From NCBI RefSeq assembly GCF_030127125.1, contig NZ_CP126156.1:1178001-1242000 (forward strand): a DNA stretch of 64,000 nucleotides. Direction: 5' to 3'. The notes under the pieces are model-generated. The model was given only the letters and a program-made list of their open reading frames with translations, was not told the origin of the DNA and made no database searches. The DNA comes from Halobaculum litoreum (GTDB lineage Archaea > Halobacteriota > Halobacteria > Halobacteriales > Haloferacaceae). Made by a program: the position numbers and the translations under genes. Below are positions 32,506 through 39,567 of this stretch, piece after piece. The first letter of the stretch is position 1. The number at the start of each line of letters is the position of its first letter.

Positions 32506-32581
32506 GGTTCCGGATAGAGTCGCTTCAGAGCCCGATCGCTGCGTGAGGGGGGGTACCTCGTGCCTGCACGGGCGCACGACC

Positions 32582-32995
32582 ATGAACGTACACGAACTGT
32601 TCACGGAGGAGCGCGCTGTATCACCGGTCATCGGGGTCATCCTGATGGTCGCGATCACGGTCATCCTGGCTGCGGTCGTCGGGTCGTTCGTGTTCGGGAT
32701 CGGGGGGCAGGTCCAGCCGTCCTCGCCGAACGCGAACTTCCAGTTCGACTACTCGGCGAACACCAGCACCACCTACGACGTGACCGCCCGCCACAGCGGC
32801 GGCGACACCATCCCGACGAGCGAGACGGTCCGGCTCGCCACGCCCGCGGGGAACGAGGAGTTCGCCGGGGACGTGTCCGCAGGGAAGACCGCGACCGTGT
32901 TCGACGTCGGCGCCGACACGACCGTCCGCGTGATCTGGGTGTCGGGGAACGGCGAGGACTCCGCCGTGCTCGCGGAGGACTCCACGCCGTCGTAA
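32582..32995 (+). CDS. Type IV pilin-like protein
   Basis: The 137-residue protein has the archaeal pilin signature: a charged leader and EERAVSPVIGVILMVAITVI, where PibD should cut before AVSPVIG, followed by a membrane helix. The head domain is small and beta-rich, ending DSAVLAEDSTPS. This is the best match in the window to the PilA-type (DUF1628) pilins of haloarchaea. It is related in layout to the pilin at 10922 but the head domains differ. There is no assembly gene nearby. A T-run follows at about 33018. Confidence 0.88.
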   Translation: MNVHELFTEERAVSPVIGVILMVAITVILAAVVGSFVFGIGGQVQPSSPNANFQFDYSANTSTTYDVTARHSGGDTIPTSETVRLATPAGNEEFAGDVSAGKTATVFDVGADTTVRVIWVSGNGEDSAVLAEDSTPS

Positions 32996-33125: not shown

Positions 33126-34778
33126 ATGGCTGATCAGAACACGAGCAGGCGTCGGTTCCTGACGGCGACGGGATCGGCGGCGGCCGCGGTCGCACTCGCA
33201 GGCTGTGCCGGCGGCGACGGCGGCGACGGGACCGAGACCGACGAGCCGATGGACACGACCGAGGGCGGGATGGAGACCACGGAGACGGCCGAGCCCACCG
33301 AGCGGCCCGAGCCGACGACCCGCGAGGGGTACCTCCAGCGGGCCAACCGCCTGATCCACGACGAGGCGCCGTGGGTGTTCCTCCACCGGCAGTTCTCGGT
33401 GTACGGCCAGTCGGACGACATCGAGTGGCAGCCGCGCACGGACGAGCGCGTGGCGGCGTACGCCATCGAACCGGCGACGGACTCCGGCGACGACGTCGTC
33501 ATGACGCAGTCGCAGATGGACTCCGGGCTCGACCCGCAGGACCACCGCGAGACGCCGACGGACAACATCGTCCTCCAGGCGTACGAGGGGCTGCTCGAGC
33601 GCGACGCGGAGGGCGCCATCGTCGAGACGCTGGCGACCGACTACCAGCGCCTCGACGAGACGACCGTCCAGTTCACGGTCCGCGACAACGTCTCGTTCCA
33701 CTCCGGCGACTCGCTCACCCCCGAGGACGTCGCCTTCTCGATCAACCGCATCGTGCAGGAGGACGTCGGCATCGCCTCCCCGCAGGTCGACCAGCTGCTC
33801 GGCGTCGAGGGGGCGGAGGTCGCCTCCACCGACGACCGCACGGTGAACGTGAACCTCTCGGGGCTCAACCCGATCGTGTTCGCGTCGTTCGCGACGTACT
33901 GCGACGTGATGAACAAGTCGTGGGTCGAGAGCAACGACGGCGCGTACATCAACCAGAACATGGAGGGGACCGGCCCGTTCCAGCTGTCGAACTACGAGCA
34001 GGGCGTCTCGGTCGAGTTCCAGCGGTTCAACGACTACTGGGACGACGAGGCGGCAATCTCCACGTTCACGATCAACGCGGCCGGCGAGGCGTCGACGCGC
34101 GTGAACCGCCTCGTCGCCGGCGAGTCCGACATCGCGGTGAACGTGCCGCCCCAGGAGGTGTCCCGCGTCGAGAACAACGACGGGACGTCCATCACGGCGG
34201 TGCCGTCGACGCGCGTCATCTTCAACGCGATGCGCTACGACGTGGAGCCGTTCGACTCCCCGCTGTTCCGGCAGGCGATCAACTACGCGGTCGACCTCGA
34301 GTCGATCATCGAGAACGTCCTCCAGACGTTCGGCAGCGCGACGGGCCAGCCGACGCTCGAGGGCTTCTTCGGCTACAACCCCGACCTCGACCCGTACCCG
34401 TACGACCCGGACATGGCCGAACAGCTGGTCGAGGAGTCCGGCTACGCCGGCGCCGAGGTCGAACTCGTGACGCCGATCGGTCGCTACCTCCGCGACGTCG
34501 AGATCGCGCAGGCGGTCGCCGCGCAGGTCGACGAGCTGTCGAACGTCTCCGCGTCGGCCCGGCAGGTAGAGTTCTCGACGCTCGTCAGTCAGGTGACGAC
34601 GGGCAACATCGAGGACAAGCCGCCGTGGTACCTCCTCGGGTGGGGGAACGCCACGTTCGACGCGATCCAGACGATCCAGCCGCTCCTCGCGAGCGACGGC
34701 TCGCTGACGTCGTACAGCAACGACGAGCTGGACCGCCTCCTCGACGAGGCGCAGCAGCTGCCGAGCGAGACGAACTAG
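33126..34778 (+). CDS. dppA: Dipeptide/oligopeptide ABC transporter substrate-binding lipoprotein, apparently circularly permuted
   Basis: The 550-residue SBP_bac_5 protein has a Tat lipoprotein signal (SRRRFLTATGSAAAAVALAG then Cys27) and an acidic linker to about residue 65. Residues 66-116 (REGYLQRANRLIHDEAPWVF onward to DERVAAYAIEP) look like the segment that normally ends this family; E. coli DppA ends with a comparable KRVELYKQAQVVMHDQAPAL. The usual family start follows (VVMTQSQMDSGLDPQDH), and the chain stops at DEAQQLPSETN, exactly where the moved segment should follow. So the order of modules is circularly permuted while total length is kept. The gene heads a five-gene operon, 7 bp before dppB. 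Confidence 0.85.
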   Translation: MADQNTSRRRFLTATGSAAAAVALAGCAGGDGGDGTETDEPMDTTEGGMETTETAEPTERPEPTTREGYLQRANRLIHDEAPWVFLHRQFSVYGQSDDIEWQPRTDERVAAYAIEPATDSGDDVVMTQSQMDSGLDPQDHRETPTDNIVLQAYEGLLERDAEGAIVETLATDYQRLDETTVQFTVRDNVSFHSGDSLTPEDVAFSINRIVQEDVGIASPQVDQLLGVEGAEVASTDDRTVNVNLSGLNPIVFASFATYCDVMNKSWVESNDGAYINQNMEGTGPFQLSNYEQGVSVEFQRFNDYWDDEAAISTFTINAAGEASTRVNRLVAGESDIAVNVPPQEVSRVENNDGTSITAVPSTRVIFNAMRYDVEPFDSPLFRQAINYAVDLESIIENVLQTFGSATGQPTLEGFFGYNPDLDPYPYDPDMAEQLVEESGYAGAEVELVTPIGRYLRDVEIAQAVAAQVDELSNVSASARQVEFSTLVSQVTTGNIEDKPPWYLLGWGNATFDAIQTIQPLLASDGSLTSYSNDELDRLLDEAQQLPSETN

Positions 34779-34785
34779 GCCGCCA

Positions 34786-35778
34786 ATGGGTTACGGCCGT
34801 TTTCTGCTGAAACGGGGTGTACAGGGAGTCGGCGTCGTCTGGGGAGTCGTGACCGTCGTGTTCGTCCTCCGGTTCATCACGCCGGGGTCGCCCATCGACA
34901 CCGTCGCGCCGCTGGACGCGAGCCAGGAGACGCGGCAACGGATCGCCGAGGAGCTGGGGCTGGACCAGCCGCTGTACGTCCAGTACCTCGACTACCTCGC
35001 CGAGCTGTTGCAGGGCAACATGGGGTACTCGTACATCTCCAGCATCCCGGCGTCCGTGCAGGTGTTCCAGAAGCTGCCGGCGACGCTCGAACTCGCGGTC
35101 GCCGCGAGCCTCGTCGCCGTCGCGTTGTCGATCCCGCTGGGCGTGATCTCGGCGACGCGCCGCCACGAGCCCGCGGACTACGCGGCGACGTCGTTCTCGC
35201 TGCTGGGCATCTCGACGCCGAACTTCTGGCTCGGCATCATGCTCGTGTTGGTGTTCGCCGTCGAGTTGAACGTGTTCCCCACGAGCGGCCGCGCGTACGG
35301 CTTCGGCCAGACGCTCGCGGCGATCACCGGGCCAGAGCCGTTCTTCACGGTCGCGACCGCGTGGCTCGCGTCGCTGTTCCTCCCGGCGATCACGCTGGGG
35401 ACGTACTTCACGGCGCTCATCACCCGGCTCGTCCGCTCGGGGATGCTCGACGAGCTGTCGCAGGGGTACGTCCGCGCGACCCGCGCGAAGGGCCTCCCCG
35501 AGACGCTCGTGCGCTACAAACACGTGCTGCGGAACACGCTGGTGCCGGTGGTGACCGTGCTGGGGCTCCAACTCGGGACGCTCATCGGCGGCGCGGTCAT
35601 CACGGAGGCGGTGTTCGCGTGGCCGGGACTCGGCACGGAGATCATCCGGGCGATCAACGCCCGTGACTGGCCGATCCTCCAGGGCAGCCTCATCGTCATC
35701 GGCTGCGGCTTCGTCCTGCTCAACATCGCGGTCGACGCGCTGTACGCGTACCTCGACCCGCGGGTGGTGGCGGAATGA
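34786..35778 (+). CDS. dppB: Dipeptide/oligopeptide ABC transporter permease DppB
   Basis: The 330-residue inner-membrane permease has the N-terminal FLLKRGVQGVGVVWGVVTVV, the periplasmic loop with LGLDQPLYVQYLDYLAELLQ and GNMGYSY, and the EAA coupling loop YVRATRAKGLPETLVRYKHV. It forms the channel with DppC. About six membrane helices are expected. It lies 7 bp after dppA, and its TGA overlaps the ATG of dppC by three bases (ATGA), so translation is coupled. Haloarchaea hold many paralogous Dpp/Opp systems; the exact peptide or other substrate (nickel and sugars are also carried by this family) is not known. Confidence 0.94.
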   Translation: MGYGRFLLKRGVQGVGVVWGVVTVVFVLRFITPGSPIDTVAPLDASQETRQRIAEELGLDQPLYVQYLDYLAELLQGNMGYSYISSIPASVQVFQKLPATLELAVAASLVAVALSIPLGVISATRRHEPADYAATSFSLLGISTPNFWLGIMLVLVFAVELNVFPTSGRAYGFGQTLAAITGPEPFFTVATAWLASLFLPAITLGTYFTALITRLVRSGMLDELSQGYVRATRAKGLPETLVRYKHVLRNTLVPVVTVLGLQLGTLIGGAVITEAVFAWPGLGTEIIRAINARDWPILQGSLIVIGCGFVLLNIAVDALYAYLDPRVVAE

Positions 35779-36848
35779 AGATCGGCCCGATCTCGATCTC
35801 GCCGCGGACGATCCGGAACCTCCGCAAGGAGTTCCGCTCGTCGGGGCTGGCGCGGATCGGCGTGGTGTTGGTCGTGCTCGTGTTGTTGGCGGCGGTGTTC
35901 GCGCCGTTGATCGCGCCGCACAACCCCCGCACGCAGACCCTCGATCAGGCGCAGCTGCCGCCGCTGGGGTTCACCGACACCGAACAGCAGACGCGGTCGG
36001 AGATGGTCAACGGGAGCATCGAGACCGTCACCGAGAACGTGACCGTGAACGCGACGACGACGTACCCGCTCGGGACGAACTCGCTGGGGCAGGACATGCT
36101 CTCGCGGGCCATCTACGGCGCGCGGACGTCGCTGTTGGTCGGGTTCTTCGGGACCGTGTTGGCGGCGCTGTTGGGGGTCACGGTCGGCCTCACCGCGGGC
36201 TACTACCGCGGCCGGGTCGACGACCTCCTGATGCGGACCGCCGACGTCTCGTTGGCGTTCCCGTCGCTGGTGCTGGCGATCGCCCTCATCGGGCTGTTCA
36301 GCCGGTTCCAAGCCGACGTCGCCTACCGGATCACCGACCCGCTCGTGTCGACCGGCTTCGCCGGCTGGTTCCGCGAGTTGGTCGGCCTGCCGACGCCGAT
36401 GCCCGAGACGGTCGTGTTGCCCACGGTCGTCATCCTCGTCGTCGGCTTCGTCAACTGGGTGTGGTTCGCCCGCATCGCGCGCGGCGAGGCGCTCTCCATC
36501 CGCGAGGAGGAGTACGTGAAGGCCGCCCGCGCGCTGGGCGGCAGCGACGCCCGGATCGTGTTCCGGCACGTCCTGCCCAACGCCATCACGCCCATCCTCG
36601 TGCTCGCGACCATCCAAGTCGCCGCGATCATCCTGTTGGAGTCAGCGCTGTCGTTCCTGGGGTTCTCCGGGACGACGCTCTCGTGGGGATTCGACATTGC
36701 CCAAGGACGTGACTACCTCTCGTCGTCGTGGTGGATCGCAACCGTGCCCGGCCTCGCCATCGTGCTGTCGGTCATCGGCATCAACCTCGTTGGGGACTGG
36801 CTCCGCGACGCGCTCGACCCCGGCATCGAGGGGGAGGGGGGGCTGTAG
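35775..36848 (+). CDS. dppC: Dipeptide/oligopeptide ABC transporter permease DppC
   Basis: The 357-residue second permease has a first helix at about residues 32-52 (ARIGVVLVVLVLLAAVFAPL) and the family motif TYPLGTNSLGQDMLSRAIYG after a long external loop. The EAA loop is YVKAARALGGSDARIVFRHV, and IAQGRDYLSSSWWIATVPGL then LAIVLSVIGINLVGDWLRDA mark the C-terminal helices. The external loop between about residues 55 and 95 carries several Asn-x-Thr sites and is longer than in bacteria. It overlaps dppB and directly abuts dppD, whose ATG follows the stop without a gap. Confidence 0.94.
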   Translation: MKIGPISISPRTIRNLRKEFRSSGLARIGVVLVVLVLLAAVFAPLIAPHNPRTQTLDQAQLPPLGFTDTEQQTRSEMVNGSIETVTENVTVNATTTYPLGTNSLGQDMLSRAIYGARTSLLVGFFGTVLAALLGVTVGLTAGYYRGRVDDLLMRTADVSLAFPSLVLAIALIGLFSRFQADVAYRITDPLVSTGFAGWFRELVGLPTPMPETVVLPTVVILVVGFVNWVWFARIARGEALSIREEEYVKAARALGGSDARIVFRHVLPNAITPILVLATIQVAAIILLESALSFLGFSGTTLSWGFDIAQGRDYLSSSWWIATVPGLAIVLSVIGINLVGDWLRDALDPGIEGEGGL

Positions 36849-38085
36849 ATGAGCGACACGGCAGCCGCGGGCGAGTCCCGTGGCGCCCCCGCCGGCCACC
36901 CGGACGACGTGCTCCGCGTGCGCGACCTCTCCACCCGCTTCTTCACCGAGGAGGGGCAGGTGAACGCCGTCGAGTCGGTGAGCTTCACCGTCCGCGACGG
37001 CGAGATCTTCGGCATCGTCGGCGAGTCCGGCTCCGGCAAGTCGGTGACGGCGCTGTCGCTGATCGACCTCGTCGACTCGCCCGGCCGCGTCACCGGCGGC
37101 GAGGTGTGGTACCGCGACGCCGATCTGGCCGAGGAGTTCCGCGACCGTCTCCCCGACGCCGTCGACGGCGAGTTCGTCGACACGCGCCGGCTCCCGAAGG
37201 GGGTGCGGCGCGCGCTCCGCGGGCCGGCGTTCTCGATGGTGTTCCAGGACCCGATGTCGTCGCTGAACCCCTCGGTCACCGTCGGCGAGCAGATCGCCGA
37301 GGCCGTCGAGGTGCAACGGCGCGCGACGGCGAACCCGCGCCGGACGCGCTCGCGGACGCAGGGGTACGGGATGGGGAAGCTCATCGCCGACACCCTGCTC
37401 CCGAACCGGGGGTTCACCTCGGAGTCGAGCATGAACCGGGCGATCGAGTTACTCGAACAGGTCGGTATCCCCGACCCGGCCGAGCGCGCCCACGAGTACC
37501 CCCACCAGTTCTCCGGCGGGATGCTCCAGCGCGCGATGATCGCGCAGGCGCTCGCCGGCGAACCGGACGTGTTGATCGCCGACGAGCCGACGACCGCGCT
37601 CGACGTGACGATCCAAGCGCAGATCCTGAACCTCCTGCGCGACCTGCAGGAACAGGCCGGCACGTCCGTCGTGATGATCACCCACGACCTGGGAGTCATC
37701 GCGCGGATGTGCAACCGCGTCGGCGTCATGTACGCCGGCCAGATCGTCGAGCGCGGGACGCTGTCAGACGTGTTCGAGACGCCCGTCCACCCGTACACGC
37801 AGGGGCTGCTCGGGTCGATCCCCGACCTCGACGACCCCGCGCCGCGGCTCCAGCCGATCGAGGGGAACGTCCCCTCGCTGCTCGACGAGGAGATGGGCGG
37901 GCGGTGTTTCTTCGCCGACCGCTGTCCGAAGGCGATGACCGACTGCCTCCAGCCGATCTCCGAGTACGACGCCGACCCGGGGAGCGACGAGCACACGGCC
38001 CGCTGTGTCCTCGCCGAGCGGGAGTTCAGCGAGGCCGACGCGCTCCCGCCGGACCACTTCGACCGGAACGAGGAGGTGCGCGGCG

Positions 38086-38093
<8 letters not shown>
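36849..38093 (+). CDS. dppD: Dipeptide/oligopeptide ABC transporter ATP-binding protein DppD
   Basis: The 414-residue ATPase has Walker A GESGSGKSV, Q-loop SMVFQDPMSSLNPSVTVGEQ, signature FSGGMLQRAMIAQALA, Walker B VLIADEPTTALDVT and H-loop MITHDLGVIA. The C-terminal extension has the oligopeptide-family motif CFFADRCPKAMTDC and a later Cys (HTARCVLAER), the usual OppD/DppD tail, which in some homologues holds an iron-sulfur cluster. Between Walker A and the Q-loop there is an extra charged region, and a further insertion follows the Q-loop (residues about 155-185). Its stop overlaps the dppF start by 8 bp. Confidence 0.94.

Positions 38094-39567
<1,474 letters not shown>

Follow-up and report, generated by a model that had tools for sequence, protein, structure and literature searches.

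The 550-amino acid product of ORF 33126-34778 (+), labelled P0001 here, is circularly permuted as judged by its sequence: the helix-strand unit that closes conventional SBP_bac_5 proteins comes after the lipoprotein linker, and the chain stops in the loop from which this unit formerly started. The ORF is open throughout and lies in a 64,000-nucleotide stretch of Halobaculum litoreum DNA (the window). P0001 is very probably a working solute-binding lipoprotein of a peptide/nickel type ABC importer with a circularly permuted fold and a predicted function. The permuted form is widespread in haloarchaea and probably arose there more than once. The parts of the protein and the genes that follow it are given in Table 1.

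Table 1. Parts of P0001 and the downstream transporter genes, in window coordinates
Feature	Coordinates	Strand	Basis
Tat signal (RRR motif) and lipobox LAGC, residues 1-27	33126..33206	+	sequence
Acidic low-complexity tether linker, residues 28-62	33207..33311	+	sequence; mean pN/pS 0.86
Relocated family C-terminal segment, residues 63-116	33312..33473	+	tail profile, rotation scan, shared conserved positions
New junction, old C-terminus to old N-terminus, residues 117-124	33474..33497	+	profile-match spacing
SBP_bac_5 core, N-terminal strand to helix before cut, residues 125-543	33498..34754	+	PF00496, core profile
New C-terminus (QLPSETN) and stop codon	34755..34778	+	sequence
dppB-like permease	34786..35778	+	NCBIfam Opp2B 310.6 bits, under cut-off 350
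dppC-like permease	35775..36848	+	NCBIfam Opp4C 247.1 bits, under cut-off 350
dppD-like ATPase	36849..38093	+	ORF; named by position and sequence; after DppC in most relatives
dppF-like ATPase	38086..39567	+	ORF; named by position and sequence; after DppD in most relatives; start placed by eye within ORF 38005-39567

P0001 carries the sequence pattern of a Tat lipoprotein, with a twin-arginine motif and a lipobox cysteine; the TAT_signal family PF10518 matches it weakly, under its cut-off. The preliminary description had placed a C-terminal family segment behind a lipoprotein signal, and this is the arrangement we found: a Tat-type signal and linker, then the segment. That description began the segment at residue 66. 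The relocated tail is there, but the conserved P-x-x-R motif sets its start near residue 63, and residues 117-124 lie outside it as a short junction newly formed by the permutation. The PF00496 match covers residues 165-525 only (226 bits against a gathering score of 32.4, E 1e-66), and the core profile, which has the window among its training rows, scores 704.7 bits. Since the order-bound PF00496 match omits the moved segment, permuted members look C-terminally truncated, with an unexplained N-terminal stretch. Similarly, every match to P0001 among 60 PDB chains listed by phmmer begins at residue 114 or later; in the best three of these, the match extends to residues 542-549, near the end of the protein. 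Relatives end in LPSES-N or similar. Directly upstream of the gene, the start of a short ORF (32543-32995) resembles an archaeal pilin, as judged by eye.

We built a tail profile from the C-terminal tails of 54 conventional haloarchaeal proteins. The window ORF searched with it begins 14 codons upstream of the ATG, so that its residues 75-130 correspond to residues 61-116 of P0001. The profile matched exactly these residues with 91.0 bits (E 1.6e-29), and this was the sole match in the frame. The core is followed by the end of the protein with no second tail match in frame, in agreement with the earlier claim that the chain stops just ahead of the missing segment. The window genome encodes four PF00496 proteins, and P0001 alone matches the conventional-tail profile strongly. 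Across distinct haloarchaeal ORFs, the tail profile matched N-terminal to the core in all 50 permuted ORFs (70.2-99.0 bits) and C-terminal to it in all 57 conventional ORFs (79.7-109.8 bits), the latter largely by construction because most of these tails are the training set. The junction between the two profile matches measures 5-9 residues in 50 out of 50 permuted ORFs. With the tail profile, no double-segment intermediate was found among the 107 distinct haloarchaeal ORFs, none of which has the segment on both sides of the core; a second match in L079, obtained with an earlier version of the profile, scored -1.4 bits, a chance level. These counts leave out the partial conventional ORFs (the first of L120 and the second of L135), the bacterial and distant rows (L054-L058, L002 and L016) and L142 (G335), in which the frame is broken. 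The L142 gene is permuted and appears to shift frame inside the core, and it may be a pseudogene or reflect an assembly error.

We then aligned every rotation of the mature domain globally to five conventional proteins. For all five, the five best cuts fell at domain positions 57-67, that is, residues 117-127 of P0001. Between the native order and the best rotation, the alignment score rose from 199.5 to 269.5 for E. coli DppA, and for the conventional proteins from 1408 to 1619 (the haloarchaeal L034), 1372.5 to 1564.5 (L035), 1070.5 to 1270 (L119) and 1277.5 to 1492 (L044). Joining the two ends had been proposed to rebuild a conventional protein, and rotation does improve the alignment to each of the five homologues. 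For L081, a protein of the second permuted group described below, a rotation by 54-63 positions raised the score for five out of five targets. As a control, conventional L034 aligned best unrotated or at most two residues off in both tests. Rotated P0001, taken without signal and linker, also outscored the native protein for 52 out of 53 listed PDB chains (3m8u, 85.8 to 102.1 bits; 1uqw, 99.7 to 109.9; 8caw, 92.3 to 100.6; 1dpp, 90 to 95.1; 5u4o, 135.2 to 140), the lone exception being 8upi (74.5 native, 73.1 rotated).

The segment is also conserved in the same places. At least 90% of sequences share one residue at 16 segment positions in 35 permuted rows and at 17 positions in 36 conventional rows, and at 15 positions the residue is the same in both orders. 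The helix-strand pattern of the segment is identical in the permuted and conventional models. The preliminary description had likened residues 66-116 to the end of SBP_bac_5 proteins; the tail profile, the rotation scan and the 15 shared positions all bear this out. The possibility that these residues form an unrelated domain, which it had also raised, fails on sequence, given the shared conserved positions and the same predicted secondary structure. P0001 thus departs from the conventional SBP_bac_5 order in that the helix-strand unit is present, but ahead of the core; as in a natural permutant, both parts are homologous to conventional proteins and rotation improves the full-length alignment to them.

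AlphaFold2 gave a model from 35 permuted sequences (pLDDT 88.0, pTM 0.82) that was less confident than the one from 36 conventional sequences (pLDDT 92.7, pTM 0.88). Foldseek, which keeps chain order, aligned fewer columns of the permuted than of the conventional model to 5u4o (449 at TM 0.69 vs. 494 at 0.89), 1uqw (446 at 0.74 vs. 493 at 0.91) and 8z1z_F (477 at 0.71 vs. 512 at 0.90). In these models, the shorter order-bound alignment is as a permutation predicts, although part of the difference may stem from the permuted model being less confident. All 50 listed Foldseek matches are to binding proteins of the family 5 type, for ligands such as peptides, nickel, glutathione, opines and sialic acid; among them, P0001 does not show the cluster B sugar-binding fold of the TpMglB-2 type.

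We searched for the permuted order in related genomes. Nine out of ten other genomes of the genus contain full-length matches to P0001 with 83-89% identity, whereas the tenth (G010) encodes a conventional homologue that is 62% identical over the core. A search of 392 genomes of the order at E up to 1e-100 gave a match in 157. Of the matches that were listed, 39 start at query residue 1-7; they come from 39 genomes (the window's own included) and six families (f1, f4, f5, f7, f10 and f15), and every other match listed starts at residue 100 or later. Two chromosomes whose records are titled complete genome, those of Halosimplex aquaticum (NZ_CP118158.1) and H. pelagicum (NZ_CP058909.1), are permuted too. 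Beyond the order, no permuted copies appeared among the matches listed for 294 genomes across the phylum, 53 of which had a match, in a search at E up to 1e-30 that could miss weak permuted relatives; all listed matches with a start ahead of residue 100 were from this order. Homologues at the five bacterial loci inspected are all conventional.

These results bear on whether the order is an artefact. The preliminary description had allowed for a real new topology, a rearrangement or a misassembly. By the listed estimate, the window's own assembly is 85.87% complete, which would leave some room for a misassembly or for a rearrangement private to this genome. However, the same order recurs in the nine congeneric genomes, the six families and the two complete-genome records. 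Because so many independent assemblies of relatives carry it, we rejected misassembly, give the artefactual or private reading a negligible chance, and take the permuted order as real. Close relatives with the normal C-terminal order, which had been named as potential counter-evidence, do exist (G010), but nothing contradicts the order in the window. The segment is under selection at its new position: in 10 genes (window, eight same-genus genes and G025), the uncorrected mean pN/pS was 0.36 for the segment and 0.26 for the core, far below the 0.86 of the linker.

Permuted and conventional genes share much of their anatomy and surroundings. The Tat-lipobox pattern occurs in 48 out of 50 permuted and 53 out of 57 conventional ORFs, and in these the linker between the lipobox cysteine and the family segment that comes first is 35 and 39 residues long (medians), respectively. 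We counted operons for distinct binding proteins that had 9 kb or more of context. The B, C, D and F genes lie downstream on the same strand at 17 out of 21 permuted and 34 out of 46 conventional loci. Most of the exceptions had a permease or ATPase that was missed by the position or ORF rule, or two genes interchanged, and for several of them the missed gene does adjoin the binding protein gene; no permease was seen at four conventional loci (L086, L114, L116 and L122). By this gene order, conventional and permuted genes usually head the same dpp-type operon. Two conventional loci, L120 (G147) and L135 (G038), have two adjacent dpp-like gene sets each.

We also looked for leftover tail DNA between the stop codon of the binding protein gene and dppB. 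A dppB start was found for 43 out of 50 permuted ORFs (median gap 7 bases; the conventional median is 13, from 39 out of 59). In 41 of these 43, the gap is at most 52 bases and thus too short for a tail of about 165 bases; the two outliers measure 111 and 571 bases. In L020 (G003), the stop codon of the binding protein gene reads CAG, where the window and the eight other same-genus genes compared have TAG. The permuted ORF there continues in frame into DppB and encodes 915 amino acids, either a fusion or a sequencing error. The N-terminus of such a permease is expected inside the cell, so that in a genuine fusion an exported binding protein would need to be accommodated there.

To count how often the permutation arose, we built binding protein trees on the core only, so that the moved trait itself is absent from the data. 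From the alignments, 17 out of 105 rows (88 used), 36 out of 105 (69 used) and 40 out of 114 (74 used) were dropped. These were mostly near-copies and also bacterial rows, and the long-branched conventional L114, L112, L086 and L116 were additionally dropped from the 69- and 74-row trees. A single permuted clade was rejected on the core (p-AU 8.9e-7; 29 permuted vs. 40 conventional rows), on the larger core set (p-AU 1.8e-11; 32 vs. 42), on DppB+DppC (p-AU 5.4e-5; 21 vs. 39) and on the core and DppB+DppC combined (p-AU 1.5e-5; 21 vs. 37). Because a single clade is rejected, the simplest reading of the sequence trees is that one and the same loop was the site of at least two gains, one in a main group and one in a second group. 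We defined the two groups only after the first tree had been inspected. The second comprises proteins from G196, G087, G316, G292, G656 and G661, and its nearest conventional kin are from f14, f10 and others.

The fact that both groups are cut at the same loop, often with a proline-containing run ahead of the segment, would also fit a single early permutation followed by several reversions to the conventional order. One conventional protein, L145 (G655), could be such a reversion. On rooted trees, however, two or three gains are far cheaper in changes than this history, and the bacterial homologues at the five loci inspected are conventional. Moreover, leaving their own group aside, the segments of three out of four second-group members are nearest to that of conventional L119 and not to the main group (for L080, L119 is tied with another conventional row, while L082 is closest to different conventional rows). 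We regard the early single gain as unlikely and prefer at least two gains. On the free tree, L145 itself falls among the second-group proteins; it is 61% identical to L081 over the core, and its segment is without the H-[AV]-N-G motif of the group. It could represent a reversion, a recombination or a sign of a further gain. A second-group clade that excludes G655 is not rejected (p 0.167).

The number of gains may be higher than two if the main group is composite, with three to five independent permutations in all. The DppB+DppC tree rejects one main clade (p 0.003). On the free trees, the number of changes needed is three for the 88-row core, four for the 69-row core and the combined data, and five for the 74-row core and DppB+DppC; well-supported branches force two (88- and 69-row core, combined) or three (74-row core, DppB+DppC). 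On the other hand, neither the core-only data (p 0.316 and 0.244) nor the combined data (p 0.095) reject one main clade, most of the main group has in common a YLQRAN-type motif and a PEPETRE-type run, and the segment tree, which is weak with 59 columns, needs only two changes. We regard three to five gains as a minority reading of these trees. The binding protein and permease trees differ in the main group, which would alternatively be expected if one permutation had spread by recombination, with a signal-plus-segment 5' end swapped onto other cores. Haloarchaea exchange genes readily. In the second group, however, the segment, the core and the permeases are all separate from the main group, which makes this route quite improbable, and independent gains remain our preferred reading.

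With regard to function, the preliminary description called the protein DppA. P0001 does have the core of that family (PF00496), but the name serves as a label only: the protein matches 11 NCBIfam families, all with scores below the respective cut-offs, and it scores 80.2 bits against a cut-off of 1005 for the DppA equivalog NF043070. In E. coli DppA, R383 binds the dipeptide carboxylate (PMC12136057). The aligned residue, R453 of P0001, is invariant in 71 out of 71 homologues. The column of D436, the Asp that binds the ligand amino group in DppA, holds Asp in none of the 71, in an alignment that is gapped nearby; P0001 has an Asp three residues beyond this column, near the gaps. The substrate may therefore not be a dipeptide, and a peptide-like or other family 5 type ligand is plausible from the sequence. 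P0001 thus shares with E. coli DppA the core, the gene order dppABCDF and the carboxylate-binding Arg, and differs from it in segment order, in being a Tat-signal lipoprotein and in the amino-group Asp column. With the 57 conventional haloarchaeal DppA-like lipoproteins it shares the signal type, a similar linker length and usually the operon; these, unlike P0001, carry the segment at the C-terminus. We infer that P0001 is the anchored binding protein of an ABC importer.

The closest precedent found for P0001 is TpMglB-2 (Tp0684), a circularly permuted glucose-binding lipoprotein. Its authors propose a 'Type Ic / Cluster Bc' for it, report the permutation also in relatives and suggest that tethering may favour permutation (PMC4990184). 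The strands that begin E. coli MglB sit near the C-terminus of TpMglB-2, and at 13% identity the moved part can hardly be recognised from its sequence (PMC4990184). Both are tethered binding proteins of ABC importers, naturally permuted, with the permutation in relatives too. Unlike TpMglB-2, a cluster B sugar-binding protein, P0001 is an archaeal SBP_bac_5 protein whose C-terminal unit moved to the N-terminus, and its core is up to 66% identical to those of conventional homologues. No permuted SBP_bac_5 protein and no archaeal permuted case appeared among the papers listed in searches of the open-licence PMC literature. To our knowledge, most natural circular permutations come to light when the event is already remote and close relatives of conventional order are scarce. 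In the present case, homologues of both orders, with core identities of up to 66%, head the same operon type across dozens of species, and the permutation seems to have originated repeatedly. What a topology change costs, what it gains and by which route it occurs thereby become directly testable.

We propose the following explanation, in which both the function and the reason for the changed order are inferred. The protein would be exported by the Tat pathway and anchored by lipid, after which the chain would adopt the two-lobed clamp fold usual for the family, the moved unit returning to its former position. This clamp would catch a peptide-like ligand, as the retained carboxylate-binding Arg suggests, and deliver it to the two permeases. 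Models for the origin of permutations include duplication as well as fission and fusion (PMC3320104). For each gain here, the tail may have been duplicated or transferred into the linker and the original then lost.

In the permuted protein, the membrane tether would pull on the last helix of the fold and not on the N-terminal strand, and this strand would adjoin the ligand site in the SBP_bac_5 family. It is possible, though we hold it only tentatively, that within one protein family and one archaeal order the same permutation was invented at least two and perhaps three to five times, always at one loop, the reason being that the tether is thereby moved from the ligand-site strand to the back of the fold. 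If so, haloarchaea would offer a natural experiment in which membrane anchoring drove convergent changes of topology. The proposal for TpMglB-2 that tethering favours permutation is also touched by this case; since conventional relatives too are tethered, the changed order needs more than tethering as its explanation. The permutation would moreover create a free C-terminus at a surface loop. Four permuted proteins of f4 (L062, L064, L066 and L069) have 21-31 extra residues beyond the core at the new C-terminus. These extensions are rich in Gly, Ser and Asn, with runs of N-x-S/T that could be glycosylation sites.
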